Position numbers and translations under genes: made by a program. From NCBI GenBank assembly GCA_026387895.1, contig JAPLKT010000039.1:1-44577 (forward strand): 44,577 bases of DNA, in the 5' to 3' direction. Shown piece after piece: positions 17,271-35,146 of the stretch. Under the pieces are notes generated by a model, which did not search any database, was not told the DNA's origin, and worked only from the letters and a program-made list of their open reading frames with translations. The DNA comes from Gemmatimonadota bacterium (GTDB lineage: Bacteria > Gemmatimonadota > Gemmatimonadetes > Gemmatimonadales > Gemmatimonadaceae). The number at the start of each line of letters is the position of its first letter. Position 1 is the stretch's first letter.

Positions 17271-17512
17271 TCGTCGTCCCCGTGTCCGGTAAGGGCGCGC
17301 GCCGAGACGATGCGCAACACCATGCCGCCCGAGACCGGTTCATTGAGCGCTACGGGGAGACCGCGGCTATCAGTGGTCGCGCGGGTACCGGCGACGAGTG
17401 CCTCAGCAATGGTGGCGTCGTGCGCACGAACGGCGTCGATCACCGTGGCGCCGCGAGCAACAGAGACTGCAGCGCCATTGACGAAGGCGCAGACCTCAAT
17501 GGGTTCGATCAT
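17267..17512 (-). CDS. Small beta-grasp-like protein of unknown function
   Basis: This 81-residue protein overlaps its neighbours by 4 bp on each side (ATGA and GTGA junctions), so translation is almost certainly coupled. The pattern VCAFVNGAAVSVARGATVIDAV, then GMVLRIVSAR, looks like a ThiS/MoaD or ferredoxin-type beta-grasp: two strands, a turn before a helix, and a final strand. It lacks the C-terminal diglycine of sulfur carriers and the cysteines of 2Fe-2S proteins. It could be a regulatory or scaffolding subunit for the flanking enzymes; that is a guess. I do not recognise the family. Confidence 0.7.
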   Translation of the reverse strand: MIEPIEVCAFVNGAAVSVARGATVIDAVRAHDATIAEALVAGTRATTDSRGLPVALNEPVSGGMVLRIVSARALTGHGDDE

Positions 17513-19245
17513 GGAAAATTATTGAGAGGACGAAGCGCGTCGAATGGACGCTCGTGGATCGAGGCAGCTGCGGCCGCCTGTTGTAGCGCATCCGGCGTCA
17601 GCGACCAGTTGCGGGTGAAATAGTCCGACGGCTTCAGTGTTTTCTTGGCCGTCACTTCGTCGATGAGTAGCTGACGGATTTCGAATTGCTTGTCGTGCAT
17701 CAGCGGCGCACCGCGAAGCATGGTGTAGCCCCCCGCCCCGCCCGCCCGATAGTTCGAGAGCGCAATGGTGAAAGTATCGCTGTCGCGCACGAGTGCGCCC
17801 TTCACCTTTAGCCCCGTAATGCGGGCGCCCGTCGGCTTGGAGAGGTCCATCGCGTACTCAGCGCCCGCGACCATCTCAAAGTTAAACGACGGAATTGAGG
17901 GGTCGGGGGTCACGCGCGTGCCCGTGACCTGCCAGTATCGTGCGCTCTGCTCGAGGTACTCGCGAAGCTGCTTGCCCGAGATCCGCAGCCCCTTGAGCGT
18001 GTTGTCATACGGATACAGGAGCGCGAGCTGCGCCACCGTCACGTTGCCCTTGGCAAGACGCGCCTCGGTTGAGAACGCCGCGGCTGAGGCCAAATCTGTC
18101 CCCGCCGCCTTGCGCATGACCTCAAGGACGAAGTCCATGATCGGGGTGTCCACGACTCGCGCCGAATCGGCACGCCAGTCGGTGGTGGTGGTACCGATCA
18201 CCGCGGTTGAATAGCTACGTGCCGCCTTGTGTCCCGCAGTCGCGGCGGCAGCGACAGCCGCCTGTTCGCCATGCCCCGTCGCGCGCACCACCTGGGCGTG
18301 CTTGGTGGTCACCGTGGCTTTTCCGCTTTCCACGCGGACACCGAGGTGCGCCACCGAGACGCTCGTCGCCCAGTTGCGGGGCTGCGTCAGGAGCACGCCA
18401 TTGATCAGCGTATCGGCCAGTTCGCGATGCGAGTGCCCAAAGACGATCAGGTCGATCCCCGGCACCTCCTTGGCCACCGTCGCCATCGGGTTTTCGCTCC
18501 CGAGCCCCGTCCCGACGGTGTCGTAGGAAGCCACGCCGTCTAGGCCGGCATGGGCGACCACGACAATCACCTGCGCACCGGCCGCGCGCGCCTCGGCGAC
18601 GGTGCGACGTACCGCCGGCACGATGTCGTCGATCGCAACCTTCCCCTGCAGATTCTCGGCGTCCCACACCATTGAGCCGGGGTTTGTGACGCCAATGATG
18701 CCGACCTTCACGCCGTCGCGCACCACGATTGTAAAGGGCGACCAGCGCTTCTTGCCGTCGAGGCTCCGCGAGTTGGCAGCCAAGAAGGGAAACGTGGCCT
18801 GGGCGCTCGCCCGCTCGAATGCGGGAATGCCATAGTTGAACTCATGGTTGCCGACGGCCACGGCGTCGTAGCGCATGGCGTTCATGGCCGCGATCACGGG
18901 GTGGGCCCCCTTCCCGTCGCGGGCCACATAGGTGAACGGGTTCCCCTGCAACAGATCGCCGGCGTCCACGAGCAACACGCGCCCGGGGTTCGCCGTCCGC
19001 ACCGAATCCACGATGGTGGCGGCCCGAGAGAGGCCGCGCCCCCCTTCGGCCGTGTCGGCGTAGTAGTCCCAGCCGCGGACCCGCCCGTGCACATCCGTCG
19101 TGGCAGTCACCACCAAATCGACCACCCGAGTGCCCTGTCGGCCTGCCGACTGCCCCACCAAGACCGCAGGGACCACTCCCGCAGGGACGGCGAAGAGCGC
19201 CATCGCCAAGGCAAGGCGCAGCAGGGGGGACGAACGTCGTTCCAT
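17509..19245 (-). CDS. Secreted 5'/3'-nucleotidase or 2',3'-cyclic phosphodiesterase (CpdB/UshA family)
   Basis: This is a 578-residue exported metallophosphoesterase. The N-terminus is a signal peptide (residues about 1-35). The metal-binding motifs are TTDVHGRV (D51, H53), DAGDLLQGNP (D97), GNHEFNYG (132-139), VAHAGLD and FGHSHRE. The C-terminal nucleotide-binding domain ends with the YDNTLKGLRISGKQL and SNYRAGGAGGY segments. The early WDYYAD, GLSRAATIV and HPVIAAMNAM pieces match CpdB-like 2',3'-cyclic phosphodiesterase/3'-nucleotidases better than UshA. It would release nucleosides and phosphate in the periplasm, and the nucleosides could then pass to the ADA and PNP encoded downstream. 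Confidence 0.92.
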   Translation of the reverse strand: MERRSSPLLRLALAMALFAVPAGVVPAVLVGQSAGRQGTRVVDLVVTATTDVHGRVRGWDYYADTAEGGRGLSRAATIVDSVRTANPGRVLLVDAGDLLQGNPFTYVARDGKGAHPVIAAMNAMRYDAVAVGNHEFNYGIPAFERASAQATFPFLAANSRSLDGKKRWSPFTIVVRDGVKVGIIGVTNPGSMVWDAENLQGKVAIDDIVPAVRRTVAEARAAGAQVIVVVAHAGLDGVASYDTVGTGLGSENPMATVAKEVPGIDLIVFGHSHRELADTLINGVLLTQPRNWATSVSVAHLGVRVESGKATVTTKHAQVVRATGHGEQAAVAAAATAGHKAARSYSTAVIGTTTTDWRADSARVVDTPIMDFVLEVMRKAAGTDLASAAAFSTEARLAKGNVTVAQLALLYPYDNTLKGLRISGKQLREYLEQSARYWQVTGTRVTPDPSIPSFNFEMVAGAEYAMDLSKPTGARITGLKVKGALVRDSDTFTIALSNYRAGGAGGYTMLRGAPLMHDKQFEIRQLLIDEVTAKKTLKPSDYFTRNWSLTPDALQQAAAAASIHERPFDALRPLNNFP

Positions 19246-20062: not shown

Positions 20063-20776
20063 GTGACAGAGCAGACCGTACCATTCGCCACTGACCGTGT
20101 CCTCATCGTGGACGACGAACCGGACATCGTCGCGCTCGTGGTCTATCATTTGGCGAAAGCGGGATACCGCGTGTCCACCGCCAGCTCCGGACCCGACGCC
20201 TTGGCACTCGCCAAGCGGGAGCGCCCTGCGTTAATCGTGCTCGACCTCATGCTCCCGGGCATGTCAGGATTCGAGGTGCTTGAACAACTGCGCGCCAACG
20301 AAGCCACACGCCATACCGCCGTGCTCATGCTGACGGCCCGCAAGGAAGAACCCGACCGGATTCGCGGACTCTCGCTCGGCGCTGACGACTATCTCACGAA
20401 ACCCTTCAGCCCGCAGGAAATGGTCCTGCGCGTGGCGGCAATCCTGCGACGTGTCTCGGCGCCCGCTGCGACGGCCGATGTCCTCACCATTGACGACATC
20501 GTCATCGATCGCGCGGCGAACACCGTCACGGTCAAGAACGAGCCGGTAGAACTGACCGCCACGGAGTACAAGTTGCTGCTGACACTCGCCGAGCGGCGTG
20601 GACGGACGCAGGCCCGCGCACACCTCCTCGAGAAGGTGTGGGACGCCGCCCCCGATATCCAGACGCGGACGGTCGATATGCACGTGCTCCGACTCCGCTC
20701 CAAGCTCGGCCCCTCGGGCGATTTGATCGAGACCGTCCGCGGCTTCGGCTACCGCATGAAGGCGTCGCACAGCTAG
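20063..20776 (+). CDS. phoB: OmpR/PhoB-family response regulator
   Basis: This is a 237-residue two-component regulator. The receiver domain has the acidic pair D17/D18, phosphoacceptor D61 (IVLDLMLPG), T91 and K113 (LTKPF). The C-terminal winged helix has [14 protein letters not shown] and the recognition segment [17 protein letters not shown]. The GTG start at 20063 follows GAGAG. The order phoB, then phoR 5 bp later, and the many phosphate genes downstream make PhoB the likely identity, but the domain alone would also fit other OmpR-type regulators. Confidence 0.88.
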
Positions 20777-20781
20777 GACGC

Positions 20782-22500
20782 GTGAAACTCACCCAGCGCA
20801 TCCTCCTTGGGGCCATCGCCGTCGTTGGCTTCCTCGTCGTCACGATCGTGGTGGTGGTGAACCGCCAGCTCAGCCAACGGCTGCGCGATGAGACCACGAA
20901 GAATCTGGCGCGCGAAGCACGGTTCGTCGCGACCCAGTGGACCCCAACGACGAATCCGTCGGTGCTGGCGCGCACGGCGGGCGTTGCCCTCGGCCGACGC
21001 GTGACGCTCATTCGCGAGGATGGCGTCGTGCTTGGCGACACCGACTTCGAGGGGGAGGCGCTGGCACGGCTCGAGAACCATCTTACCCGCCCGGAAGTGG
21101 CCTCGGCGGTCAGCGGCGAGATTGGATCAGCAGTGCGCCCCAGCGCCTCGCGGGGTGACGTCGAACTCTATGTCGCCGTGCGCGCGCCGCTTGGCGTGGC
21201 CCGGGTGTCGGTGCCAACCGGATCGCTCGACGCGATTGTGGCGGCCGCTGGACGCGACGCTGCGTCGGCCGGCGCCGTCGCCCTTCTGGGTGCGCTGGTG
21301 CTCGCCTGGCTCTTTTCGCGGTCGGTGTCGCAACCCGTTGTTGAACTGCGCGACGTCGCCCGAGCGCTCGCCTCGGGAGACCTCACCCGACGGTCGAAAA
21401 TTCGTGCTCCAGGCGAGGTGGGGGATCTCGCCGTCGCCTTGGACCAACTCGCCGAACAGCTCTCCGCCAGACTCGCAGCGCTTCAAGCCGATGAGTCGCT
21501 CCTCCTCCAGCTGACAGAATCGCTCAACGAGGGCGTCATTGCGATCGATACGGATGCCATGGTGGTGCGCATCAACGAGACGGCCCGCCGCCTCCTGAAT
21601 GCGCGCGACGCACTGCCCTTCCATTCGGACCTCTTGCCCCGCGCCACCGCGCTCCGCGACGCCCTAGCCGGTGCCACCGCCGGCGACACGACAGACGACG
21701 CGGAACTCGTCATCAGTGGACGCACGCTGAACGTGACCGCGCGCCCCCTCGCTGGAGGCGGGGCGGTCCTCGCGCTCCTCGACCTGACCCGCGTGCGCCG
21801 ACTCGAAGCGGTACGCCGCGATTTCGTGGCGAACGTGTCGCACGAGCTCCGTACCCCCCTCACGATCGTTAGTGGATTCGCGGAAACGCTCGCCCAAGAC
21901 GACCCGCCGGCCGACAGTCGCCGGCAGTTCGCCGACCGAATTCTTGGCAACACCCGCCGGATGCAGCGCATTGTCGACGACTTGCTCGACCTCTCGCGCA
22001 TTGAAAGTGGCGGTTGGGTCCCCAATCCAATGACGCTCGACCTGCTCGCGGTCGCGTCGGATACCATTGCCGCTGCCTGTGATGCCGCGGACGCCAAGGG
22101 GCTCACCCTGTCGGTGGATATCCACCCCGAATCGGCCGTGCTGTTCGCCGACGCGACAGCCCTCCGTCAAGTCATTGGCAACCTCGTCGACAACGCGGTT
22201 CGGCACACGGCGACCGGCGCCGTCGTCATCTTTTCGCGGCCGCGCCCCGACGGCGGGGTCACGGTTGGGGTGCGCGACACCGGCGTGGGGATCCCGGCCG
22301 AACACCTCCCGCGGATTTTCGAGCGGTTCTATAGAGTTGATCCAGGGCGCGCGCGCGCCGAGGGCGGCACGGGACTCGGCCTTGCGATTGTTAAGCACTT
22401 GGTGGAGGCACACGGCGGAAAGGTCAAAGCCGAGAGCGTGCCTGGGGCTGGAACAACGATTATGGTGAATTTTCCAGCCAGTTCGCCCTTGCGCGGGTAA
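20782..22500 (+). CDS. phoR: Membrane sensor histidine kinase, PhoR-like
   Basis: This is a 572-residue kinase starting at GTG 20782 after AGGA. It has one membrane helix (residues about 7-27), an extracytoplasmic region of about 130 residues, a second helix (about 162-180) and a HAMP domain ([17 protein letters not shown]). A PAS-like domain (about 240-335) precedes H354 in the H-box ([14 protein letters not shown]). The ATPase part shows [22 protein letters not shown] and [18 protein letters not shown]. The HAMP-PAS-HisKA-HATPase order matches PhoR kinases that work with Pst/PhoU. The large periplasmic part suggests it may also sense an external signal. Confidence 0.9.
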
Positions 22501-22644
22501 CCCGTACGCCGGGTGGGCCTGCCTGTCGTTACCTGTCCGTGACACAACCGAAGTAGAGCCGATACCAGGCGGTGGGAGCTTTAAGTCTGCAGTTCCGGCG
22601 CGTGTCCGCAACGCGACGTACCGCACTCCCGAACCCAACTGGCC
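22501..22644 (+). promoter_or_regulatory. Upstream region of the TonB receptor with CTGTC repeats
   Basis: Within this 144-bp gap, CTGTCGT (22523-22529) and CTGTCCG (22533-22539) form a 10-bp-spaced direct repeat followed by TGACAC. It resembles a Pho box with one base less spacing. No convincing -35/-10 pair could be fixed. The likely target is the receptor gene that starts at 22645. Confidence 0.3.
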
Positions 22645-25461
22645 ATGCGCCTCTCGTTTCGCTCGATTCTGATTGTTCTCCTCGTCGCGATCGCTCCGTT
22701 CGCGCTTCACGCGCAGAGCGGCACAGCGCAGAGCGGCACAGCGCCCGCCGCTGGCCGCATCGTCGGCCGCGTGATTGACGCCGCGACCGGACAAGGCATC
22801 ACCGACGTCGCCATTCAGATTGTCGGAACCACCACCGGCGGCATGTCCGGCCTCGAGGGACGATTCACGCTCTCCGGCGTCACGGCGGGCACCGTCACCT
22901 TGCAGGCACGCCGCATTGGCTTCGCTCCTAAGACTGTCACGGGAATTTTTGTTGAGCCCGGCAAGACGGTCGAACAGAACATCTCGCTGGCGCAGGCCGC
23001 TGCGCAGCTGAGCGCGCAGATGGTGACCGCCGCCGCCGAACGTGGCTCGGTGAGTGAGGCGCTCGATGCACAGCGCACCGCAACTGGTGTCGTGAGTGCC
23101 GTGACCGCCGAACAGATTGCCAAGAGCCCAGACGGCGACGCCGCGCAGGCTGTGAAGCGTGTGAGCGGAGTCACCGTTCAGGATGGCAAGTATGTGTTCG
23201 TCCGCGGCTTGGGTGAGCGCTACACTACGAGTTCGTTGAACGGCGCGCGAGTTCCGAGCCCCGAGCCTGAGAAGCGCGTGGTGCCGCTCGACATGTTCCC
23301 TGCAGGCTTGCTGCAGTCGATCACCACATCGAAGACGTTTACTCCTGACCTGCAGGGTGACTTCTCCGGCGCGCTCGTGGATATCAAGACGAAGGAGTTC
23401 CCGGCACGCCGCTCCTTCTCAATTCAGGCGGGCAGTGGCTACGCTGCCGGCGCGACGGGCTCGCAGGTGACCTCGGCGACTGCAACAGGTGGCGAGGAGC
23501 TGGCGATGGTCAACCACGGCCGCGACCTCCCAACGATTATCCGCAACCTTGGCAGCTTCAAGAACATCAACCTGAACCAGGGCGACATGAACATCCTGGT
23601 CGGGTCACTTCGCAACTCGTGGACACCGACGGTCCGCACCGCTGCCCCGCTGATGAACGGATCGGCGTCGATTGGCGGCAATGATCCCGTTCTTTTCGGC
23701 CACCGACTCGGGTATCTCTTCTCCGGGTCGATCACGTCGGGTACCGATACCAAGGACGATCAGATTCGCGCCTTGGCGGATCGCGGCACCACGCGCGGTA
23801 CCACGGTCGAGATGGATCGCTTCTCGGGTCGTGCGGTCAGCCAGAGCGTGCTGTGGGGCGGGCTGGCGAACCTGAGCACGATGATCGGCAACGGTTCGCG
23901 GGTCTCGTTCAACGGACTTTATAATCGTCAGGCCGATAACGACGCGCGCGTCGAGAACGGTGCGTTCACCGCCGACGCGGTCAACGTACGCATCAGCCGC
24001 ATGCAGTACGTGCAGCGCAGCATCTATTCGGGCCAGTTGGCCGGCGAACACCAGATCGGGACCCTGCAGAAGATCGAGTGGTACGCCACGGCGAGCGGTG
24101 TGCGGCGGTACGAGCCGGACCGTTCTGAGTTTGTGCAGGTGCTTGAGAAGGACACCCCGACTGGTCCAGTTGTGCCTCGTTGGCTCAGCGGTGGCAGCGG
24201 CGGCGCCGTGCGCACCTTCTCCGACCTCACCGAGAATAGCCACGAGTATTCGGCCAAGTACTCCCTAGACCTCGGCTCGGCCGCGCGGTTCGGCTCGATC
24301 AAGCTCGGATACCTGGCGCGCACGACGGCGCGTGACGCCCAGAGCTTGTCCTATTCGATTGCCGCGAACCCGTCGTTGACGACAAACGCCATCCGCGAAC
24401 TTCCGCCCGAGCAGTTGTTCGACGGGCGCTTCACCACCGCTTCCTCCAAGCTCTTCACCTTCGGCCCGCTCTCGCAGGGCGGTTCGTACATCGCGCGTGA
24501 CCAGATCCGGGCCGGCTTCCTGATGGCAGAGGTCCCGCTGAGCCGTTCGGTTCGCCTGATCGGTGGCGCTCGGTACGAGAACGACGACCTCGAAGTTGAT
24601 GCCTTCTCGACCCTCGGGTCGCCGGTACTCACGCACAAGGTGTGGAACGACGTCCTCCCGTCGCTCGCGCTCACCATGCAGCTCTCCAACACGCAGCAGC
24701 TGCGACTCTCCGCGTCGCGGACGTTGGCACGCCCCGAGTACCGCGAACTCTCGCCGATCATTAGCCGAGATGTGATTAACGGTGAGAACCTGCGCGGCGA
24801 CGAAACGCTGGAGCGCACGAATGTTACCAACGCCGACGTGCGCTGGGAGCTGTACCCGAGCTCGGGTGAGGTCCTCAGCATCGCGCTCTTCGGCAAGCAG
24901 TTCACGAACCCGATTGAGCGTGTGTACGGATCTGGTAGTGGTGGCACGAGCTTCGTGTTCTATACGAATGCCAAGAGCGCCGACAACTTTGGTATTGAGG
25001 TCGAGCTGCGCAAGGATCTTGACGGCTGGTTCGGCAAGGCGTTCGCACCGTTCTCGGTGTTTAGCAACGTCACGGTGATGCAGAGCCAGATCCACCTGTA
25101 TCCGAACACGCAGGCCTCGGCGACGAATCTCAGCCGTCGCATGGTGGGCCAGGCGCCATACGTCATCAACAGCGGTGTCTCGTACACCTCGGGCAATGGC
25201 AAGACCTCGGCGACCCTGTTGTTCAATCGGGTTGGTGAGCGGATCACCGCGGCCGGTGGCACCCCGTTGCCGGACGTCATTGAACAGCCGCGCAACGTGA
25301 TGGATTTCTCGCTGCGTTTGGCGCTTTCGTCGAACGTGACACTTCGGACCGATGCGAAGAACCTGCTCGATTCGCCGTACGAGGTGATTCAGGGCACGGT
25401 AACGCGCGAGTCATACCGCACCGGCCGGACCGTACAGGCCGGCCTGCAGTGGCGCCCGTAG
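22645..25461 (+). CDS. TonB-dependent outer-membrane receptor
   Basis: This is a 938-residue outer-membrane transporter energised by TonB. It has a signal peptide (cleavage near LHAQS) and a carboxypeptidase-regulatory-like beta-sandwich domain (about 37-112, starting GRIVGRVIDAATGQGI). The plug follows (about 145-260; VKRVSGVTVQDGKYVFVRGLGERY) and then a beta-barrel to the C-terminus (QAGLQWRP). A short Gln-Ser-Gly-Thr-Ala doublet follows the signal peptide. The substrate is not readable. Its position between phoR and pstS suggests uptake of phosphate or an organophosphate, but that is contextual. The gene is followed by a strong terminator. Confidence 0.92.
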   Translation: MRLSFRSILIVLLVAIAPFALHAQSGTAQSGTAPAAGRIVGRVIDAATGQGITDVAIQIVGTTTGGMSGLEGRFTLSGVTAGTVTLQARRIGFAPKTVTGIFVEPGKTVEQNISLAQAAAQLSAQMVTAAAERGSVSEALDAQRTATGVVSAVTAEQIAKSPDGDAAQAVKRVSGVTVQDGKYVFVRGLGERYTTSSLNGARVPSPEPEKRVVPLDMFPAGLLQSITTSKTFTPDLQGDFSGALVDIKTKEFPARRSFSIQAGSGYAAGATGSQVTSATATGGEELAMVNHGRDLPTIIRNLGSFKNINLNQGDMNILVGSLRNSWTPTVRTAAPLMNGSASIGGNDPVLFGHRLGYLFSGSITSGTDTKDDQIRALADRGTTRGTTVEMDRFSGRAVSQSVLWGGLANLSTMIGNGSRVSFNGLYNRQADNDARVENGAFTADAVNVRISRMQYVQRSIYSGQLAGEHQIGTLQKIEWYATASGVRRYEPDRSEFVQVLEKDTPTGPVVPRWLSGGSGGAVRTFSDLTENSHEYSAKYSLDLGSAARFGSIKLGYLARTTARDAQSLSYSIAANPSLTTNAIRELPPEQLFDGRFTTASSKLFTFGPLSQGGSYIARDQIRAGFLMAEVPLSRSVRLIGGARYENDDLEVDAFSTLGSPVLTHKVWNDVLPSLALTMQLSNTQQLRLSASRTLARPEYRELSPIISRDVINGENLRGDETLERTNVTNADVRWELYPSSGEVLSIALFGKQFTNPIERVYGSGSGGTSFVFYTNAKSADNFGIEVELRKDLDGWFGKAFAPFSVFSNVTVMQSQIHLYPNTQASATNLSRRMVGQAPYVINSGVSYTSGNGKTSATLLFNRVGERITAAGGTPLPDVIEQPRNVMDFSLRLALSSNVTLRTDAKNLLDSPYEVIQGTVTRESYRTGRTVQAGLQWRP

Positions 25462-25480
25462 CACCAACCGCAACGCAGGC

Positions 25481-25517
25481 AAGAGCCCTCGGTGCGATTC
25501 TCGCACCGGGGGCTCTT
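25481..25517 (+). terminator. Hairpin terminator after the TonB receptor
   Basis: A 17-bp stem with a single G-U type mismatch (arms 25481-25497 and 25501-25517) and a 3-nt loop lies 20 bp after the receptor stop. Confidence 0.85.
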
Positions 25518-25531
25518 CGCATATAACAAAA

Positions 25532-25595
25532 CTGTAAGAGGCGCGTGACCGTATCGTGACCAAACCGTAGTCGGGGCTGTACAGAGTCCCTGTTA
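25532..25595 (+). promoter_or_regulatory. Repeat-rich upstream region of the beta-helix lipoprotein gene
   Basis: The heptamer CGTGACC occurs at 25544-25550 and again at 25555-25561, an 11-bp period, with CTGTAAG at 25532. Further on there is the palindrome CTGTACAG, then CTGTTAC. Eleven-bp phased repeats are typical of OmpR/PhoB-family sites. The following gene starts at 25677. Confidence 0.35.
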
Positions 25596-25676
25596 CTTCG
25601 GAATGCGGTCGAACGCTTCGACGCGGGAATAACTGTGGAATCACACGTGCCCTATTCACTTCTTTTCGAGGATCGT

Positions 25677-27446
25677 ATGCACTTCACCCGTCGCGCGCTG
25701 GCGATGTCCGCGGTGCTGTTGGCCGCTCTGACATCTGCGTGCAGCAAGGACAGCACCACGGCGCCCTCGGCGCCGGCTCCGATTGTTGGCGTCGCGGTTG
25801 TCGCCAAGAGCATCTCCAGCATTCAGATCTCCTTCACCAGCATCGCCGGTGACGTGAGCTACGACATCGAGCGCGCCGAAGGCACCACGGGCGGCACCTT
25901 CGCGGCCGTCACGAACGTTCCGGCCCCGGCGACCGCCGGTGCGGTGACGTACACCGACGCCAGCCTCAAGACCAACACCACGTATCGCTATCGCGTCTTC
26001 ACGAACAAGAACTCGCTGAAGAGCGTCGCCTCCGGTGAGGCCACCACCGCCACGCTCGCGTTTGGCAACGCTGCGGCGACGATCACGGCCGACATCGCCG
26101 CGAGCCGCACCCTCTTCGCCGATACCGCCTACACGATCTCGGGCTTCATTCACGTCGGGAACGGCGCCACGCTGACGATTCAGCCGGGCACCGTGATCAA
26201 GGGCGATTACGCTGTGCTTGGATCGACGCTGATGATCATGAAGGGCGCCAAGATTCAGGCTGTCGGCACTGCTGATGCGCCGATCGTCTTCACATCGTCC
26301 CGCGCGGCCGGTTCGCGCCAGCCCGGTGACTGGGGCGGCCTGATCCTCGTTGGCAACGGCGTGAACAACCGCAGCGGCTCCGTGGCCGTTGAAGGCACCG
26401 GCACCGACGGCGCCACCGTCGTCACCGGCAAGAACTACACGGTCGTCTACAACGGCGGCACGATCGCCACCGACAACTCGGGCACGCTCGCCTATGTGCG
26501 TGTTGAGTTCGGCGGCTACGCGCCGCTGCAGGACCAGGAGTTCAACTCCTTCACCTTCTGCGCCATCGGTTCGGGCACGCGCGGTTCGTATCTCGAGTCG
26601 CTCGACGGCCTCGACGACTCGTACGAGTTCTTCGGCGGCGCGATCGACCTCGATCACGTGATCGCCTTTGAGACGGCCGACGACGTGCTCGACATGTCGG
26701 AAGGCTACTCGGGTCGCGTGCAGTTCGCCATCGGCATCAGCACCAACCAGCTCACCCCGCGCACCGGCGCCGGCTTCTACTCCGTTGACCTCGAAGGCAT
26801 CGAGAACGACGGTTGCAACGGCACGGGCTGCGACCTGGGTCACAGCTCCACGCCGTACACCATTCCGATGATCGCCAACTTCACGCTCATCGGCTGCGGA
26901 CTCCAGAGCTGCATGGGCGCCAGCGGCGGTCACGGCATGATGCTGCGCCGCGGCACCGGTGGTTACTACGTGAACGGTGTTATCGCTCGCTGGTCGGCGG
27001 ACGGCGTTTCGCTCCGCGACACCACGACCTACGTGCGCGGCGGCTCCACCACCACGCCGTCGACCTCGGCGGACCTGCAGCTCCGCAACATCCTGTTCGC
27101 CGAAGTTGGTCCGGCCGGCACGCCGACGCTGTTCCAGGCGAACACCGCGACCCCGTCCACGCAGTTTGCGCTCGACCCCACGGCCAACAGCCTCACGCTG
27201 AGCACCGCCACGGCGGCCTCGCTCTTCGTGCTGATCCCGGCCGTTGGCACGGTGCCGACCACCCTGTCGAGCTTCGACTTTACACCGTCGACCGGCTCGC
27301 CGATCGCCACGGGCGGATTGTCGACCTTCACGGGTTCCATGCTGACCAAGGCCGGCACCTTCGTGACGGCGACCACCTATCGCGGCGCCGTTGACCCGGC
27401 TGGCGCGAAGTGGTGGGCGGGCTGGACGAACTACGCTCGTAACTAA
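25677..27446 (+). CDS. Exported lipoprotein with FnIII-like and beta-helix domains
   Basis: This is a 589-residue protein starting at ATG 25677 after GAGG. The lipoprotein signal ends LTSAC (Cys about 20), followed by a Ser/Thr/Ala/Pro linker. Residues about 35-120 look like a fibronectin type III module, and from about 130 on a right-handed parallel beta-helix is likely (repeating GATLTIQPGTVIKG, then GDWGGLILVGNG). Four cysteines (GCNGTGCDLG and GCGLQSC) may be paired. The C-terminus WWAGWTNYARN is a recurring ending in proteins I associate with TonB-receptor partners. Binding of a surface ligand for the receptor encoded upstream is plausible, not shown. Confidence 0.82.
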   Translation: MHFTRRALAMSAVLLAALTSACSKDSTTAPSAPAPIVGVAVVAKSISSIQISFTSIAGDVSYDIERAEGTTGGTFAAVTNVPAPATAGAVTYTDASLKTNTTYRYRVFTNKNSLKSVASGEATTATLAFGNAAATITADIAASRTLFADTAYTISGFIHVGNGATLTIQPGTVIKGDYAVLGSTLMIMKGAKIQAVGTADAPIVFTSSRAAGSRQPGDWGGLILVGNGVNNRSGSVAVEGTGTDGATVVTGKNYTVVYNGGTIATDNSGTLAYVRVEFGGYAPLQDQEFNSFTFCAIGSGTRGSYLESLDGLDDSYEFFGGAIDLDHVIAFETADDVLDMSEGYSGRVQFAIGISTNQLTPRTGAGFYSVDLEGIENDGCNGTGCDLGHSSTPYTIPMIANFTLIGCGLQSCMGASGGHGMMLRRGTGGYYVNGVIARWSADGVSLRDTTTYVRGGSTTTPSTSADLQLRNILFAEVGPAGTPTLFQANTATPSTQFALDPTANSLTLSTATAASLFVLIPAVGTVPTTLSSFDFTPSTGSPIATGGLSTFTGSMLTKAGTFVTATTYRGAVDPAGAKWWAGWTNYARN

Positions 27447-27461
27447 CTGCTACGGTTCGTG

Positions 27462-27494
27462 AAGGGCCGGCGCTCCATCGGAGCGCCGGCCCTT
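27462..27494 (+). terminator. Hairpin terminator after the beta-helix lipoprotein
   Basis: A perfect 15-bp stem (arms 27462-27476 and 27480-27494), a 3-nt loop and a T-rich tail lie 15 bp after the stop. Confidence 0.88.
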
Positions 27495-27529
27495 TGCGTT
27501 TCTCCTCATTCCCGTACTACACTTTCGAT

Positions 27530-28179
27530 ATGATAAAACTGCGTGAAATCTGCCTCCTGGCCGTGGTGCTGATGCCCGTTGTCGGCTGCAAGGCGTACAG
27601 CGAGCGTCGCGCCCTGGCGGTCGCCGCGGATTCAGCCCGCACCGATTCCATTGCGCGGGCGCAGCAGGATTCGATCAATCGGGCACGCCCCGACTATGTC
27701 GTGGATTCCATCTTCACCCCAGAAGAGGGCTTGAAGCGCTTCCGGAAGACGGTCCCCGGCGACAGTGCGACCCGACTCCACTCCTGCGTCGCTTCGTCAC
27801 CGCGCTCGCGAAATCGGACACGAACGAGCTGCGGGCGATGGTCGTGCACGGTCGCGAGTTCGCCGACCTCTACTACATGGACTCCCCCTACTCTCACCCG
27901 CCCTATCAGCAGCAGGCGGGAATGGCCTGGACCCTGATCCAGAATCCGAGCATCGGTGGACTCACGCGACTCCTCCAGAAGTTTGGCGGGACGTCGATCC
28001 GCTACGTGAGCCACAAGTGCGACCCGAAAGTCGAGCACGAAGGGAAGACGACTCGCTATGCCGGTTGCCTCATCGTTCTGGTCGAACCCGACGGCAAGGA
28101 ATACACCCGCCGCTACTTCGGCTCCGTCATTGAGATTGGTGGGCAGTTCAAGTTTCTCAGCTACAGCAACCAGCTGTAA
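27530..28179 (+). pseudogene. Frameshifted lipoprotein of unknown function
   Basis: The gene starts at ATG 27530 with a lipoprotein signal (MPVVGC) and a helical region rich in Ala, Arg, Asp and Ser. After FTPEEGLKRFRK and GDSATRL the frame breaks at about 27775-27785. The sequence continues in the -1 frame as LLRRFVTALAKSDTNELRAM, then VVHGREFADLYYM, and on to the stop at 28179. One missing base explains it. The rejoined protein would have about 216 residues and would carry a domain with SHPPYQQQAG and RYVSHKC. It resembles uncharacterised lipoproteins I associate with Gemmatimonadota. No function is known. Its end lies 3 bp before pstS. Confidence 0.8.
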
Positions 28180-28182
28180 TCG

Positions 28183-29271
28183 ATGCGCCGCCCCTTCAGC
28201 GAGCGCGTCGTGACACCCGTACGCGCCGTGCTCGTCCTGCTCGTCCTGCTCGTCCTCGGCCTCGCCGCCTGCGGGCGTCCGGATCGATCCCAAAGCGCCG
28301 AGCCGCGTCAGGCGCTGACGGGGGCCGGCGCCACCTTTCCCTACCCACTCTACTCGCGCTGGACGTCGAGTTACTTGCAGCAAGCCGATGTCCGGATCAA
28401 CTATTTATCGGTGGGTTCCGCCGAAGGTATTCGACTCCTCACCGCTGGCACTATCGATTTCGCTGGGAGCGACCTCCCCCTCAGCCCGCGAGCGCTCGAC
28501 TCACTCGGCTGCGGCGGCGCCATTCAGGTACCCACCGTCGCTGGAGCAGTCGCGATTGCCTATCACATCCCGGGCGTCGACACGCTGATCACCTTGGATC
28601 GCGAATCGCTCGCTGGAATCTTTTCCGGCAGGATCGTCCGGTGGGATGCTCCAGAGATTACGCGACAGAATCCGACCTTCACATTTCCACCACTGCGGAT
28701 TCGCGTCGTGCATCGCAGTAGCGGCAGCGGCACTTCCGCGGCCTTCGCCGCGTACCTGCGCGGCACCCGGTCGTGGCATCCGCGATCGGACGACGAGATC
28801 TGGCCGGTTGGGATCGCCGAAGAGGGGAACGAGGGCGTCGCCGCCCGCGTACGGCAGACCCGTGGCGCGATTGGCTATATGGAAATCGCGTATGCGCGGC
28901 AGAATCTGCTCCGCACCGCGCGCATCGCCGACGCCGGTGGCCATCCGGTCGCGCCGTCGGTTGCGGGGGTGCGCAAGGCGCTCGAGTCCGTCCCGGTGAC
29001 GCACCTCGAGCAGGCGGAGGCGGTGGTCAACTCCCGGGTTCCGGGTGCCTATCCCATTGTGGCGATCTCCTGGTTCGTGGTGCCCAAGCGGATCGCCGAG
29101 CCCGCGCGTCGCGACCGCGCCGTGGCTTTTCTGCACTGGGCACTCACCGACGGCACTGGCGACGCGGGGGCATTAGAGTACGTGCCGCTCCCGCGCGAGA
29201 CTATCACCCACTACGATTCACTGGTCGGCACGATTGCGTCCGGCGCCTGTCCCAAAGCTCCTTCCCCGTGA
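28183..29271 (+). CDS. pstS: Phosphate-binding protein of an ABC transporter (PstS)
   Basis: This is a 362-residue lipoprotein (LGLAAC, Cys30) that binds Pi in the periplasm for the PstCAB importer. Recognisable features are TGAGATFPYPLYSRW, SVGSAEGIRLL, DFAGSDLPLS, the LAGIFSGRIVRWD loop and HRSSGSGTSAAF, which supply phosphate-binding Ser/Thr residues. A 9-bp tandem repeat (CTCGTCCTG) encodes part of the signal peptide. No pstC, pstA or pstB is visible in the window, so the transporter core must be encoded elsewhere. The Ppx/GppA gene starts 1 bp after its stop, so the two are cotranscribed. Confidence 0.93.
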   Translation: MRRPFSERVVTPVRAVLVLLVLLVLGLAACGRPDRSQSAEPRQALTGAGATFPYPLYSRWTSSYLQQADVRINYLSVGSAEGIRLLTAGTIDFAGSDLPLSPRALDSLGCGGAIQVPTVAGAVAIAYHIPGVDTLITLDRESLAGIFSGRIVRWDAPEITRQNPTFTFPPLRIRVVHRSSGSGTSAAFAAYLRGTRSWHPRSDDEIWPVGIAEEGNEGVAARVRQTRGAIGYMEIAYARQNLLRTARIADAGGHPVAPSVAGVRKALESVPVTHLEQAEAVVNSRVPGAYPIVAISWFVVPKRIAEPARRDRAVAFLHWALTDGTGDAGALEYVPLPRETITHYDSLVGTIASGACPKAPSP

Positions 29272-29272
29272 T

Positions 29273-30916
29273 ATGAGCACGTTGCCTCCCCTCCGCCTCG
29301 CCGCTACCGAAGGCCCATATCGCCCGCAAGGCGAGGAAGGGGAGCAGCGAATCGCCGCCATCGACATCGGGTCCAACTCGATTCGACAGATTGTTGCGGA
29401 TGTGGGGAAGAACGGATCCATTCGTGTCGTCGATGAAATGAAGGCCGCGCCGCGACTGGGCGCGGGTCTCTCCGAGACCGGTGCCCTGAGCGAAGGGCCG
29501 ATGAATCTCGCCATCGAGTCGCTGCAGCGTATGGCCACGCTCGCCCGCCAGCTGGGCGCCAAACGCGTCGAGGCCGTGGCCACGAGTGCGGTGCGCGACG
29601 CCTCGAACGGCGCGCTCTTTCTCACGCGCGTCCGCCAGCAAACGGGGCTCAAGATCCGCCTGCTCGACGGCGCCGAAGAAGCGAAGCTGGCATATCGCTC
29701 GGCGCTCGCCCATTTCGAGCTCGGCCACGGACGCTGTGTCGTGATGGACATTGGCGGCGGCTCGCTGGAACTGGCCCTCGCAGCGGAAGGGCTGGTTGAG
29801 CACCTGGTATCCCTGCCCTTTGGCGCCCTTCGATTGACCGAACGGTTTCTCTCGAAGGGGAGTTCACACAAGGGCATCAAAAAGCTCCGCAAGCACATCC
29901 GCGACGAGATCCGCGCCGCGTTGCCGGTGCGCGACTGGCGCGGCGCCGAGGTCATTGGCTCCGGCGGAACCTTCACGAATCTCGCCGGCATCTTTCTCGC
30001 GCGGCACGGGATGCGCGCAGCACGCTCCGTCCACGGTACACGGATTCCTCGCGCCGAGGTGGAGCACATTCTGGATATGCTCGCCGAGATGTCGGTTGAG
30101 GAGCGACTGGCCGTCCCGGGGCTGAATGCCGGCCGCGCCGACATCATTGTCGCCGGTCTTGCGGTTGCCGCCGAAGTGCTGGCCCGTGTCGAGCCACGCG
30201 AGATTGGCGCGAGCGCCTACGGCATTCGCGAAGGCTTGCTCCTCGACGTGGCACGGATCAAGCCCAGCATCGCCGACCCCGGCGAAGCACGCGCGCGGTC
30301 GGTGCGGGAGTTTGCCGAACGGTGCCATTACGAGGAGCCGCACTCTCGGCAGGTGCAGAAGATCGCGCTCCAGCTTTTCGATTCCGTTGGGATGCGACTC
30401 GGCTGCGAAGCAGCGGATCGGCAGATTTTGTCGGATGCCGCGCTGTTGCATGACGTGGGCTACCACATCAACTACCAGAAGCACAACAAGCATTCGTACC
30501 ACCTGATTCGGCACGCCGAGTTGCTCGGCATGTCGCCGACGGAGAAGGTGGTGGTCGCCCATGTGGCGCGATACCACCGCGGTTCACCGCCCGACCGGGA
30601 CAAGCATCAGGAGTATGCGGCGCTCCAGAAGGGGACGCGCGCGCGGATCAAGCGATTGTCGGCACTCCTCCGTGTCGCCGATGGTCTCGACCGCGGGCAT
30701 GTGGGTGCGGTGGAGCGTATCAAGGTGCGCTGGATGGAACGGGCGCTGCGTATTACGCCGGTGGCCACCCCGCGCGCCAAGACGCTCCGCCTCGAGCTGT
30801 GGGGCGCTGCGCGGAAGAGCGGGCTGCTCGCGGAGCTGATCGGGGTGCCCGTGGAGATTGTCGGGCCGGACGGACGCGTTGTGCAGGACGCGACGATGGC
30901 AGAGACTGTCGAGTAG
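29273..30916 (+). CDS. ppx: Ppx/GppA phosphatase with C-terminal HD domain (exopolyphosphatase)
   Basis: This is a 547-residue enzyme of the ASKHA fold that splits terminal Pi from polyphosphate or the 5'-phosphate of pppGpp. The first part has AIDIGSNSIR (about 28-37), MDIGGGSLEL, and GSGGTFTNLAG. The second half holds an HD domain (LLHDVGYHINYQKHNKHSYHL) like that of longer Ppx proteins. A C-terminal region of about 80 residues follows. Which substrate dominates cannot be decided by sequence. The start ATG is 1 bp after the pstS stop, and the convergent ppk1 gene follows, so it pairs degradation with synthesis of polyphosphate. Confidence 0.92.
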   Translation: MSTLPPLRLAATEGPYRPQGEEGEQRIAAIDIGSNSIRQIVADVGKNGSIRVVDEMKAAPRLGAGLSETGALSEGPMNLAIESLQRMATLARQLGAKRVEAVATSAVRDASNGALFLTRVRQQTGLKIRLLDGAEEAKLAYRSALAHFELGHGRCVVMDIGGGSLELALAAEGLVEHLVSLPFGALRLTERFLSKGSSHKGIKKLRKHIRDEIRAALPVRDWRGAEVIGSGGTFTNLAGIFLARHGMRAARSVHGTRIPRAEVEHILDMLAEMSVEERLAVPGLNAGRADIIVAGLAVAAEVLARVEPREIGASAYGIREGLLLDVARIKPSIADPGEARARSVREFAERCHYEEPHSRQVQKIALQLFDSVGMRLGCEAADRQILSDAALLHDVGYHINYQKHNKHSYHLIRHAELLGMSPTEKVVVAHVARYHRGSPPDRDKHQEYAALQKGTRARIKRLSALLRVADGLDRGHVGAVERIKVRWMERALRITPVATPRAKTLRLELWGAARKSGLLAELIGVPVEIVGPDGRVVQDATMAETVE

Positions 30917-30963: not shown

Positions 30964-33111
30964 TCAGCCGAAGTGCGCCCCACTGGCATCAACCGCCCCC
31001 GAGACGCGGTGCGCGCGGGTGTCCGTTCCTTGGCCCCATGACTCAAGCATCAGTCGGGACTGGGTCGAGATTGCTGGGTCGCCGTTCACGTAACGCTTGG
31101 CGTATCCACCAGCGGCGCTCAACTCCCAGGCCTGCTGGTTGTCCGACAGATAGGTCTCAAGGAGCGACCGGAGGCGTAGGTGCAAGGACGGGTCCTCGAT
31201 CGGCGTCGCGGCTTCCACGCGCCGGTCAAAGTTGCGTGGCATCCAGTCAGCGGAGCTGATCCAATACTCGTGGCTCCCGTCGTTCTCAAAGAACCAGAGA
31301 CGCGAGTGTTCGAGGAAACGTCCCACGATGCTGATCACGCGGATGCGCTCGCTCACGCCCGGGATTCCGGGCCGGAGGCAGCAGATGCCGCGAATGATCA
31401 AGTCAATCTCGACGCCGGCCTTCGACGCCTCGTAGAGGGCGCGGATTGTTTCTTTGTCTACCAGCGCATTCATCTTGGCGATGATGCGTGCCGGACGTCC
31501 CGTCCGCGCATGCGCGGCCTCGCGGTTGATCTTGGCGATGACGGTGTCGCGCAAGCCGCCCGGCGCCACGGCTAGCTTGCGATAGATCAACTGACGCGAG
31601 AACCCCGTGAGCGCGTTGAAGAGGTCGCTGACATCGGCCCCGATCGCCTCGCTGCAGGTGATCAGACCAATGTCCGTGTACGTGCGCGCGGTGCGCCCAT
31701 TGTAGTTGCCGGTTCCGAGGTGGACATAGCGGCGGATTCCGTCGGCTTCCCGTCGCACGACAAGCGCCGTTTTTGCGTGGATTTTCAGCCCCGGGAGTCC
31801 ATAGGCCACATGTACGCCGTACGATTCGAGGGTGCGGGCCCACGTGATGTTGTTCGTCTCCTCGAAGCGCGCCTGCAGCTCCACCAGCACCGCCACCTGA
31901 ATGCCGCGCTGCGCGGCATCGACGAGCGCCCGAACAATCGCGCCGTCACCCGATGTGCGATACAATGTCATCTTAATCGCGAGCGTTCGGTCGTCCTTCG
32001 AGGCCGCGGCGATGAAATGTTCGACCGATGCGGTGAAGGAATCGAACGGATGGTGCACGAGCAAATCCTGCGTGCGCACAACGTCAAAGATTGAGCGGTC
32101 GGCGTCGCGCAACTCGGTGGGCACCGCGGGCGCATAGGGAACATCGCGCAACTCGGGAATGTCGAGTCCGGCGAGCACCATTAGCTCGCTCAGGTCGAGC
32201 AACACTCCTCCCACTTGAACCTCGCGATCGCTGAGCGGTTCGAACTCGGCGTCCTCGGTCTCGCGGAGTTCGTCGAGGAGGACTGTGCGCAACGCCTCCG
32301 GCATCCCCTCCTGAACCTCGAGCCGCACGACTTCGCCGAAGCGACGCTGAAACACCTGCTCCTCGATCGTCGCGAGCAGGTCCTCCGGTTCCTCGGTGTT
32401 CGCGATTTCGAGGTCGCTGTAGCGGGTGATTCGGAAGGCGTGCGTCCCGACAATCTGCATGCCAGGAAAGAGCCGCCCGAGGTGTGCACTAATGACCGCT
32501 TCGAGCGGGAGGTATTGGTGCACGCGCCCTGGCACCGCGACCCAGCGTGAGAGCGACTTGGGGACTTTCAATCGCGCGAGGCGTCGCTCAGCCCCAACCT
32601 CGGGGTGGCGCAGCTCGACCGCGAGTGAGAGGGAGAGGTTCGAGATGTATGGAAACGGATGCCCCGGATCCACCGCGAGGGGGGTCAGGACGGGGAAGAC
32701 CTGCTTGTCGAAAAAGGTGTCGACGGCGGCCCGTTCCGCATCGGTGAGGTCCGACATGGCGATAATCCGGACACCGTGCTGCCCGAGTGCGGGGAGCAAC
32801 AGTTGATATAAGCAATGCTGCACCGACTCGGTCATCTCGCGCACACGGCGATTGATGTGATCGAGTTGCTGCCGCGCGCTCAACCCATCACTGCTCACGT
32901 GGGGAACGCGCGCCGACATCTGTCGACGGAGCCCCGCCACGCGCACCATGTAGAACTCGTCGAGATTGCTGTGGAAAATGGCGAGAAACTTCAGCCGCTC
33001 CAGCAGCGGATTCCGTTCGTCGTACGCTTCCGCGAGCACCCGGGCGTTGAACTCAAGCCAGGACAGTTCGCGGTTGATGAACAACCCGGCATCCGTATGC
33101 GTGTGCGTCAC
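30964..33111 (-). CDS. ppk1: Polyphosphate kinase 1
   Basis: This 715-residue enzyme polymerises the gamma-phosphate of ATP into polyphosphate at the membrane and can run in reverse. It has the N-terminal FINRELSWLEFNARVL region and FHSNLDEFYMVRVAGL. The two catalytic histidines of the phospholipase-D-like domains are H445 (GLKIHAKTA) and H602 (FLEHSRLWFFEN). The start is GTG at 33111, 3 bp after the pit stop. The DUF47-pit-ppk1 order puts low-affinity Pi uptake and polymer synthesis in one operon. Confidence 0.97.
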   Translation of the reverse strand: MTHTHTDAGLFINRELSWLEFNARVLAEAYDERNPLLERLKFLAIFHSNLDEFYMVRVAGLRRQMSARVPHVSSDGLSARQQLDHINRRVREMTESVQHCLYQLLLPALGQHGVRIIAMSDLTDAERAAVDTFFDKQVFPVLTPLAVDPGHPFPYISNLSLSLAVELRHPEVGAERRLARLKVPKSLSRWVAVPGRVHQYLPLEAVISAHLGRLFPGMQIVGTHAFRITRYSDLEIANTEEPEDLLATIEEQVFQRRFGEVVRLEVQEGMPEALRTVLLDELRETEDAEFEPLSDREVQVGGVLLDLSELMVLAGLDIPELRDVPYAPAVPTELRDADRSIFDVVRTQDLLVHHPFDSFTASVEHFIAAASKDDRTLAIKMTLYRTSGDGAIVRALVDAAQRGIQVAVLVELQARFEETNNITWARTLESYGVHVAYGLPGLKIHAKTALVVRREADGIRRYVHLGTGNYNGRTARTYTDIGLITCSEAIGADVSDLFNALTGFSRQLIYRKLAVAPGGLRDTVIAKINREAAHARTGRPARIIAKMNALVDKETIRALYEASKAGVEIDLIIRGICCLRPGIPGVSERIRVISIVGRFLEHSRLWFFENDGSHEYWISSADWMPRNFDRRVEAATPIEDPSLHLRLRSLLETYLSDNQQAWELSAAGGYAKRYVNGDPAISTQSRLMLESWGQGTDTRAHRVSGAVDASGAHFG

Positions 33112-33114
33112 GAC

Positions 33115-34152
33115 TTAGATCTTGATGGCCGTGGAGAGCAGGAGGTAGCTGATTGCAGCCATGGCGCCCGCGGCGGGAATGGTCACCACCCAGGCCCACA
33201 CGATCTTGCTCGCGAGCCCCCAGCGTACCGCCGAGAGGCGGTTGGTTGCGCCCACGCCGACGATGGAACCGGTGATGGTATGCGTCGTGCTCACGGGAAT
33301 GCCAAACTTGGTCGCCGCGAGAATCACCAACGCACCACCGCCCTCAGCGGCGAAGCCGCCCACGGGGCGCAAGCGCGTGATGCGCGAGCCCATGGTATGC
33401 ACAATCCGCCAGCCGCCAAAGAGCGTACCGAGCGAAATCGCGGAATAGGCCGCGATCTCCACCCACCACGGAATGTGCGAGTTGTTGGCGAGATAGAAGT
33501 GGCGCCAGAAGCCGGTCTCGTTGACGAAATACCCTTGGGTCGCCACGAGCAGTCCGACGATGATACCCATCGTCTTTTGGGCATCGTTCTGGCCGTGCGC
33601 AAACGAGAGCAGGGCCGAACTCGCGAGTTGTCCCGGGCGAAATACTTTGTCAACGCGACGCGGCGACGCCTTCTGGAACAGGTTGAGCACCAGCGCCATC
33701 AGCAGGAAGCCCACCAGCATGCCCAGCGTCGGCGAGATGACGATGAACGACAGCGTCTGGATCCACTTGGTGCCCCACGTCAGCGCGGCGAAGCCACCCT
33801 TCGCAATCGCCGCACCAGCGAACCCGCCGATGAGCGCGTGGCTCGAACTCGACGGGATGCCGTAGAACCAGGTCAACAGATTCCAGATGATTGCGCCGAT
33901 GAGCGCCGCACAGATCACATTCGCGTCGACAATGTGCTGATCGACAAAGCCGCCACTGACTGCCTTGGCGACCGCCGTGTTGCCGACGAACGCCGCCACG
34001 AAGTTGAAGGTCGCGGCCCAGCAGACGGCCGCGAACGGACTCAGCACGCGAGTCCCGACGATCGTGGCAATGGAATTTGCCGAATCGTGAAACCCGTTAA
34101 TAAAGTCGAACCCGATCGCGATGATAACGATGATGAAGACGTACGTAAGCAC
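33115..34152 (-). CDS. pit: Inorganic phosphate transporter, Pit family
   Basis: This 345-residue inner-membrane permease moves metal-phosphate complexes with protons or Na+. Both repeat signatures of the PiT family are visible: FINGFHDSANSIAT near residue 16 and AHGQNDAQKTMG near residue 192. Hydrophobic helices and the SSSSHALIGG and VSTTHTITGS loops are also present. The start is GTG at 34152, 5 bp after the DUF47 stop; an upstream TTG is less likely. Pit uptake is the phosphate route used by polyphosphate-accumulating bacteria when Pi is plentiful. Confidence 0.94.
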   Translation of the reverse strand: MLTYVFIIVIIAIGFDFINGFHDSANSIATIVGTRVLSPFAAVCWAATFNFVAAFVGNTAVAKAVSGGFVDQHIVDANVICAALIGAIIWNLLTWFYGIPSSSSHALIGGFAGAAIAKGGFAALTWGTKWIQTLSFIVISPTLGMLVGFLLMALVLNLFQKASPRRVDKVFRPGQLASSALLSFAHGQNDAQKTMGIIVGLLVATQGYFVNETGFWRHFYLANNSHIPWWVEIAAYSAISLGTLFGGWRIVHTMGSRITRLRPVGGFAAEGGGALVILAATKFGIPVSTTHTITGSIVGVGATNRLSAVRWGLASKIVWAWVVTIPAAGAMAAISYLLLSTAIKI

Positions 34153-34156
34153 AGGT

Positions 34157-34768
34157 TCAGCTATTCTTGAGTGAGACGCTCTCAAGCACGTTCAGCACAT
34201 CTTCCGCTTCGTCGATTGCGTTCTCGATGTTGTCGTAGAGCTCTTTCCACTTGATGACGTCGAGCGCGTCGGGCGTCCCTTCGAACAGGGCGCCAACGGC
34301 CGCCGAATAGATGGCGTCTGCCTCTTGTTCGAGGCGCTTCATCTCACGACCAATCACCTGGACCTGGCGCGCATCCTTGAGCGAGGTCACGGCCAGAGCG
34401 ATCTGCTCCGTCGCGGCAACAAGCACGCGCGTGAGCTCCTTCGCCGGCTCCTTGCGGTCTGTGATATGGAACATCTTGGCACGACGCGCGGCGCCGTCCA
34501 TGAGGTCCACCACGTTGTCCAGCCGCGTGGCGAGCAGGTGGATGTCCTCGCGATCGAGCGGTGTAACAAAACTTCGGTCGATGCGGTTCATGATTTCGTG
34601 CGTGATGTCGTCGGCCCGGTGCTCGATTTCCTTGATCTGCACCACGTAACGATCGAGCTGCCCTGGATCTGTGAACAGTTGATTCAGGAGTGTGGCCGAC
34701 CGCGTCATGAGGACCGCGAGGCCATCGAACAGTTCGAAAAAGCCTTCATCTTTCGGAATAAGCCGCAC
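34157..34768 (-). CDS. DUF47 (PhoU-like) protein, Pit partner
   Basis: This is an all-helical, PhoU-like 203-residue protein (DUF47/TIGR00153) that usually precedes pit genes and is thought to regulate or assist that transporter. Features are RLIPKDEGFFELF at the start, EIEHRADDITHEIMNRI, FVTPLDREDIHLLATRLDNV, a typical metal-cluster segment, and KELYDNIENAIDEAEDV at the end. The start is GTG at 34768 with GGAG 9 nt upstream; a TTG 57 bp further upstream lacks this site. The functional link to Pit is from family knowledge. Confidence 0.9.
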   Translation of the reverse strand: MRLIPKDEGFFELFDGLAVLMTRSATLLNQLFTDPGQLDRYVVQIKEIEHRADDITHEIMNRIDRSFVTPLDREDIHLLATRLDNVVDLMDGAARRAKMFHITDRKEPAKELTRVLVAATEQIALAVTSLKDARQVQVIGREMKRLEQEADAIYSAAVGALFEGTPDALDVIKWKELYDNIENAIDEAEDVLNVLESVSLKNS

Positions 34769-35146
34769 GGGGGGAAGCTCCGGGGCAAAACTGACAGAGG
34801 GGAAATGCTTAGATGTATGTATCAAATCTAGATAGCTGCGCGAACGCCAGCAAACGCCCGTGGTATCCTCAGCCCCCGTTGTGGCGCGACTGTTACGGAA
34901 AGACCCAAGACGGTCGATTCAACTAATTTGTCCGACGGCATCACAGCACCAGAACTCCATCGGACTCGCGCTCCTCGATGTTTTTTTCTCGTCAGAATCT
35001 CGCGATATGCCATTTTGGCACACCCATTCTGCGGCGAACCGCCCCTTTGGGTGTCAAAATGACCCATTTATATGGTCCCATCCTTGCTACGTACAGGGCA
35101 GCAGCACCACCACATCACCAACTAATCTCCTAAGGACCGAAAGAAC
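34769..35146. promoter_or_regulatory. Divergent control region between DUF47-pit-ppk1 and dnaK
   Basis: The 378-bp gap holds no convincing gene. Near dnaK there is a long imperfect inverted repeat: CATTTTGGCACACCC (35011-35025) with GGGTGTCAAAATG (35049-35061). A shorter palindrome TGGGTGTCA-AAA-TGACCCA overlaps its right arm. A TATATG at 35069 could be a -10 element. No HrcA/CIRCE element was found. On the minus-strand side a CTGTTAC occurs once near 34890. Confidence 0.4.

Follow-up and report, generated by a model that had tools for sequence, protein, structure and literature searches.

Do a TonB-dependent receptor (TBDT) and a putative surface lipoprotein, whose genes adjoin each other among phosphate genes, act together to capture phosphorus? 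The question is posed by a 44,577-nucleotide stretch of DNA from a Gemmatimonadota bacterium (here called the window), which is one entire contig (JAPLKT010000039.1) of a 2.85-Mb draft genome (GCA_026387895.1). Its forward strand encodes a TBDT of 938 residues (22645..25461), with Pfam matches to the plug, the TonB barrel and an N-terminal CarboxypepD_reg domain, followed by a lipoprotein of 589 residues (25677..27446) with a lipobox, a fibronectin type III (FnIII) domain, a predicted right-handed β-helix and two DDxx[ED] motifs. The original prediction, made from the sequence alone, had put the two forward as a candidate phosphorus-capture pair. We find that the pair is real, co-inherited and phosphate-linked, and that it is already known in kind: it is a new case, in another phylum, of a pairing published in Caulobacter and Flavobacterium. 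The idea of such a pairing is not new, since ElpS/Cc0171 (2010) and the phoR-phoB-TBDT-FII gene order (2020), induced by low phosphate, show it. We consider it fairly probable that the window encodes a pair of the ElpS/Cc0171 and Fjoh_0545/0546 kind, controlled by PhoB, that scavenges phosphorus at the outer membrane.

Co-inheritance of the two genes

The co-occurrence analysis suggested with the original prediction speaks for the pair: searches of 200 genomes of the phylum (at E-values of 1e-5 for the lipoprotein and 1e-40 for the receptor) returned the lipoprotein in 81 genomes, the receptor in 82 and both in 77, where 33.2 would be expected. Four genomes had only the lipoprotein, five only the receptor and 114 neither (phi 0.91); the associated p-value of 8.6e-44 overstates independence, because the genomes are related. 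Among the four lipoprotein-only genomes, G036 and G146 match only the N-terminal FnIII side and G134 holds a 35-residue fragment. Within the window's own genus, four genomes have both genes and four have neither.

Gene order is kept as well. We took 80 loci (stretches of up to 20 kb) from lipoprotein matches in the phylum with E-values up to about 1e-17, leaving aside five further matches that sit on fragments or short contigs (G168:C806, G147:C59, G192:C153, G192:C35 and G095:C89). In 75 of the 80, the receptor gene lies immediately upstream of the lipoprotein gene and in the same orientation. Beyond the phylum, a scan of genome contigs retained 80 of 597 confirmed relatives; Caulobacter and Flavobacterium johnsoniae are absent from these 80, and one locus (L127) is the query's own record. 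The receptor adjoins the lipoprotein in 55 of the 80. Receptors at lipoprotein loci of other phyla score up to 414 bits against the window receptor, with a median of about 329 over 58 loci; in three genomes of the phylum, the window genome included, receptor paralogues reach at most 105 bits. Thirteen of 21 matching plasmid records were opened: a TBDT adjoins the lipoprotein match in 10 of the 11 annotated loci, the exception being Marinobacter, and tblastn found a receptor in the two unannotated records. No lipoprotein relatives were found on viral contigs. By presence, order and orthology, receptor and lipoprotein form a unit.

Phosphate genes and a shared upstream box

Occurrence mostly away from phosphate genes had been named at the outset as an observation that would count against the pair. 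Within the phylum this is not what we see: phosphate genes (PstS, PstCAB, PhoU, PPK, Ppx, Pit or PhoU_div) lie nearby in 43 of the 80 loci, a number that rises to 61 when PhoB-like regulators (200 bits) are counted, and not one of 20 control regions, each of 20 kb and taken from these genomes, contains any. Outside the phylum the link is weaker, with such genes near in only 9 of 80 loci, a point to which we return below. That the pair is phosphorus-linked and co-inherited is well supported.

The location inside a phosphate cluster is confirmed by the window's own neighbouring genes. Ahead of the receptor, on the forward strand, are genes for a PhoB-type response regulator (20063..20776), whose top NCBIfam model is TIGR02154 PhoB, and a PhoR/PnpS-type histidine kinase (20638..22500; NCBIfam PnpS and phoR_proteo, each below cut-off). 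Behind the pair, the forward strand encodes PstS (28183..29271; TIGR00975, 265 bits, cut-off 205) and a member of the Ppx/GppA exopolyphosphatase family (29234..30916; Pfam), and the reverse strand encodes polyphosphate kinase 1 (PPK1; 30964..33111; NCBIfam poly_P_kin, 823 bits), a Pit-type phosphate permease (33115..34185; Pfam PHO4) and the Pit partner PhoU_div (DUF47; 34157..34825; Pfam). In loci of other families, PhoB is the best NCBIfam model for the regulator in six of the six checked, all below cut-off, and an Alteromonas plasmid has the order phoB-phoR-pstS-lipoprotein-TBDT-ExbB. Adjoining the phosphate cluster is a nucleotide salvage run on the reverse strand (15403-19245), made up of genes for a cyclic-nucleotide phosphodiesterase/3'-nucleotidase-like phosphatase (17509..19245; NCBIfam, below cut-off), adenosine deaminase and purine nucleoside phosphorylase.

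The repeat-bearing upstream regions that had been noted for both genes are indeed present, and specific. The tandem repeat CGTTAC-CTGTC-CGTGAC (22527..22543, forward strand) ends 101 bp before the receptor ATG, and CGTGAC-CGTAT-CGTGAC (25544..25560, forward strand) ends 116 bp before the lipoprotein ATG. The exact form CGTKAC-N5-CGTKAC occurs twice in the window and three times in the genome, the third copy lying inside a coding sequence. Because PhoB/PhoP-type regulators bind 11-bp direct repeats, we call this box PHO-box-like. A direct-repeat search of 106 upstream regions found CGTGAC at period 11 in 79 of them, compared with 4 of 106 after shuffling. Among lipoprotein upstreams, the box is present at period 11 in 46 of 53 and at period 22 in 39, with at most 24 of 53 at any of the other periods between 7 and 25; within the gene itself none of the 53 has it. 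These upstream regions are not copies of each other, as only 41 of 1378 pairs share a 20-mer. The complete relative G129 has the exact box three times, once before the lipoprotein gene, and in relatives a copy with a single mismatch precedes pstS, the nucleotidase and PhoU_div-Pit. A weaker box (two mismatches) lies upstream of the window's 3'-nucleotidase-like phosphatase, on the other strand.

Each gene had also been said to possess its own terminator, which is only partly so. Strong hairpins follow both genes, but the one behind the receptor (25479..25520, forward strand; fold z -7.62) has no T-tract and was not called by the terminator scan, whereas the one behind the lipoprotein (27458..27498, forward strand; fold z -7.29), with a 19-bp stem and a T-rich tail, is an intrinsic terminator.

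A third component is HypA, a small conserved lipoprotein gene (27530..28179, forward strand) with a frameshift near 27780 in the assembly, possibly an assembly error. Its family follows the pair in 47 of the 80 phylum loci, and searches returned no Pfam family beyond chance matches and no PDB match. The adjacent PstS stands in a genome without PstCAB: we found no PstA there, and the best PstB match (157.5 bits) falls short of the cut-off of 343.2. At the limits used, PstA and PstB are both missing from the same 11 of 25 genomes checked, which include the window genome and G129, a one-contig genome rated complete, and PstS is retained beside the pair in 8 of the 11, again including the window. 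Four genomes of a single genus (G087, G129, G004 and G073) encode a PstS that has a hydrophobic N-terminal stretch, perhaps a membrane anchor, and lacks a lipobox. Genomes without PstCAB offer a clean setting for testing the uptake system.

Models of the lipoprotein and the receptor

Open reading frames, Pfam, lipobox and structure model together bear out the description of a 938-residue receptor beside a 589-residue FnIII/β-helix lipoprotein. The lipoprotein reading frame begins at 25635, and the start that provides a signal peptide and lipobox (LTSAC), and hence 589 residues, is at 25677. FnIII is matched by Pfam in 37 of 61 family members; the window lipoprotein searched singly gave no Pfam match. 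The β-helix is predicted at about residues 130-440, where most 10-residue blocks have a pLDDT above 85. Alignment of the model with VIA on Foldseek's top 1000 gave Z scores of about 18-23 to β-helix proteins (maximum 22.9); Foldseek by itself gave nothing at E <0.001. The matches include enzymes (pectate lyase, polygalacturonases and alginate epimerases, Z about 18-22) and non-enzymes (NosD, adenovirus hexon-interlacing protein and an adhesin). One of them is the GH28 polygalacturonase 1ia5 (Z 19.7, 3.4 Å RMSD, 270 aligned residues), but we reject membership of GH28 despite the β-helix fold, as no GH28 appears in the Pfam matches of the 61 members (E 0.01). A PDB sequence search with the lipoprotein alone had no significant match, and with the family profile the matches listed (60 of 173) cover mostly the FnIII part. 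Some relatives of about 470 residues lack FnIII yet have the helix. On Alteromonas and Pseudoalteromonas plasmids (L118, L121 and L126) the lipoprotein is about 1360 residues long with repeated β-helix copies, and shares its stretch with ExbB/ExbD/TonB-type genes.

Two acidic motifs, D313-D314-E317 and D335-D336-D339, are 22 residues apart, and since this spacing is about one helix turn, they should stack in the helix, as the strand positions also suggest. Each of the six residues is kept in 58 to 61 of the 61 phylum members; for D313, D314 and E317 the count is 59 of 61 each in A1, a set found independently. In A1 and A3 alike, D335 and D336 never vary. The pattern of the scan that yielded A3 included DDxxE, which by construction makes D313, D314 and E317 invariant there.

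The AF2 model of the receptor (mean pLDDT 84.1) aligns by VIA with FecA (Z 40.8, 2.9 Å RMSD, 592 aligned residues) and with BtuB1 of the BtuB1G1 complex (Z 34.8, 3.4 Å RMSD, 589 aligned residues), and on this model the receptor is a FecA/BtuB-type transporter. It reaches only 26.5 bits, over its N-terminal part, against the SusC/RagA family TIGR04056 (cut-off 368).

How might the two proteins work together? Under phosphate starvation, PhoB would bind the tandem 11-bp boxes and switch on both genes from separate promoters. The lipoprotein, presumably anchored at the cell surface, would bind a ligand that contains phosphorus, probably together with a metal ion, in the β-helix groove lined by the two stacked DDxx[ED] rungs. 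It could then hand this ligand, or a product released by a phosphatase, to the adjacent receptor, which would import it with TonB energy, as the receptor fold and the SusCD and BtuBG systems suggest; by analogy with these systems the hand-off may be lid-like. A periplasmic phosphatase and Pit would complete the process. Nucleotides or nucleic acid would be our weak guess for the ligand, because the cluster also contains genes for a 3'-nucleotidase-like phosphatase, adenosine deaminase and purine phosphorylase. What was a hypothetical lipoprotein can now be tested as half of a two-protein uptake system, given its strict co-inheritance with one receptor subfamily, the shared promoter box and the conserved groove acids. 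A broader proposal, which we hold only tentatively and think rather unlikely to be right, is that the pair represents a third, phylum-spanning class of lipoprotein-capped TonB transporters, with a β-helix lid and dedicated to phosphorus, which in lineages that have lost PstCAB, the window genome among them, works with Pit and a retained, sometimes membrane-anchored PstS as the main entry of phosphorus at low phosphate.

Known systems and competing explanations

Caulobacter is reported to make the surface lipoprotein ElpS under phosphate starvation; elpS adjoins the TBDT gene cc0171 and type II secretion genes, and elpS and cc0171 co-occur across genomes (Le Blastier et al. 2010, PMC2996285). 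The window shares with ElpS (CC0170)/CC0171 a phosphate-linked surface lipoprotein gene beside a TBDT gene, and on Sphingomonas and Indioceanicola plasmids the window protein's relatives are encoded in the order lipoprotein-TBDT-type II secretion. In the window, by contrast, the TBDT precedes the lipoprotein, beside phoBR and without type II secretion genes. The alphaproteobacterial plasmids L114 and L115 have the arrangement reported for Caulobacter, with type II secretion genes after the lipoprotein and TBDT. The window lipoprotein has homologues in Flavobacteriales and among alphaproteobacterial proteins whose genes follow the elpS order, with ElpS and Fjoh_0546 themselves compared by description. 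ElpS and TBDTs are also mentioned in a 2024 paper in connection with the PhoB regulon (PMC11208175).

In F. johnsoniae, the lipoproteins FI-FIII are reported to be 31-36% identical to the Caulobacter protein; FII lies in the order phoR-phoB-TBDT-FII, its TBDT and FII are strongly induced at low inorganic phosphate (Pi), and FI is the most abundant exoprotein of phosphate-starved cells (18.7%) (Lidbury et al. 2020, PMC8115612). Deletion of Fjoh_0546 or Fjoh_3856 reportedly leaves colony spreading unaffected, with no phosphate phenotype mentioned alongside (PMC7807042). Fjoh_0543-0546 and Fjoh_3856/3857 have the same genes side by side as the window, both being low-Pi induced, and PF07715, PF13715 and PF14905 of the Flavobacterium TBDT are also found in the window receptor. 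FII is annotated with IPR011050, the pectin-lyase fold, and FI belongs to this kind of lipoprotein. The systems differ in that phoR precedes phoB in Flavobacterium (by locus numbers) and that the window lipoprotein has an FnIII domain, FII being compared by description. The openly licensed literature yielded no paper on this pair in Gemmatimonadota.

SusCD and PusCD likewise combine a TBDT carrying an N-terminal CarboxypepD_reg extension with an adjacent surface lipoprotein, and PusCD is low-Pi induced. However, the partner in the window is modelled as a β-helix rather than the helical fold of SusD and has no SusD Pfam match, and the receptor lies far below the SusC/RagA cut-off; we therefore reject membership of SusCD. 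BtuB-BtuG provides a TBDT with a non-SusD lipoprotein lid (PMC10404256). The receptor model matches BtuB1. BtuG, a seven-bladed propeller, differs in fold from the window lipoprotein and binds B12.

Several observations weigh against a PhoB-controlled scavenging pair. The PhoB of the cluster scores 238 bits, under the curated TIGR02154 cut-off of 296. Other families of the phylum rarely have the box (2 of 23), and it was not found before pstS or phoB within the window. Caulobacter cc0171 was reported as constitutive by RT-PCR, and its deletion as leaving ElpS production going (PMC2996285). Beyond the phylum, 71 of the 80 loci showed no close Pst/PhoU/PPK-type gene when searched with queries from this phylum, so that some members elsewhere may serve other ends. 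The same 71 loci are what favours a general scavenging pair, for carbon or a metal, whose place next to phosphate genes in this phylum would be incidental, a reading we judge very improbable. In favour of a phosphorus link, neighbours in other phyla include response regulators (10), metallophosphoesterases (Metallophos_2, 5), ABC permeases (BPD permeases, 4), PstS-like binding proteins (PBP_like_2, 3) and phosphate-selective porins (Porin_O_P, 2), all within the 25 most frequent of 152 Pfam families in 132 neighbour proteins (132 of 150 ORFs from a crude longest-ORF caller).

The chief competing explanation is that the receptor is an exporter, an Oar-like TBDT that surfaces the lipoprotein, which then acts alone, for instance by activating an extracellular phosphatase. 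It would fit the presence of one dedicated receptor per lipoprotein, the reported requirement of the TBDT Oar for secretion of the protease PopC (PMC6434023), and the report that ElpS overexpression increased alkaline phosphatase activity while ElpS itself showed none (PMC2996285). We nevertheless consider it unlikely. The same report that ElpS production was not suppressed by deletion of cc0171 counts against it, as do the residues behind the lipobox Cys: at least two are acidic in 52 of 76 lipoproteins, compared with 3 of 29 HypA proteins, and although this stretch is weak in the window lipoprotein (CSKDS), it looks like a generic surface signal. Bacteroidota lipoproteins, moreover, reach the surface by other routes. 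Just as doubtful, in our estimate, is that the β-helix protein is an enzyme, a hydrolase or lyase acting on polysaccharides or phosphodiesters, that releases phosphorus from cell-wall material or exopolymer, with the receptor importing the product and no lid involved. Its fold resembles the enzymes listed above and its acids are strongly conserved, and the Flavobacterium authors are reported to have modelled FI-FIII on a polygalacturonase (PMC8115612). Yet the non-enzymes have the same fold, the reported inactivity of ElpS concerns alkaline phosphatase and points the same way, and in A1, the phylum set, no histidine exceeds 80% conservation; the one A3 column that reaches 81% has Phe in the window protein.

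Elsewhere in the window, the protein encoded at 11541-12836 on the reverse strand weakly matches the Hvo_1808 family of surface proteins (97 bits, against a cut-off of 200).
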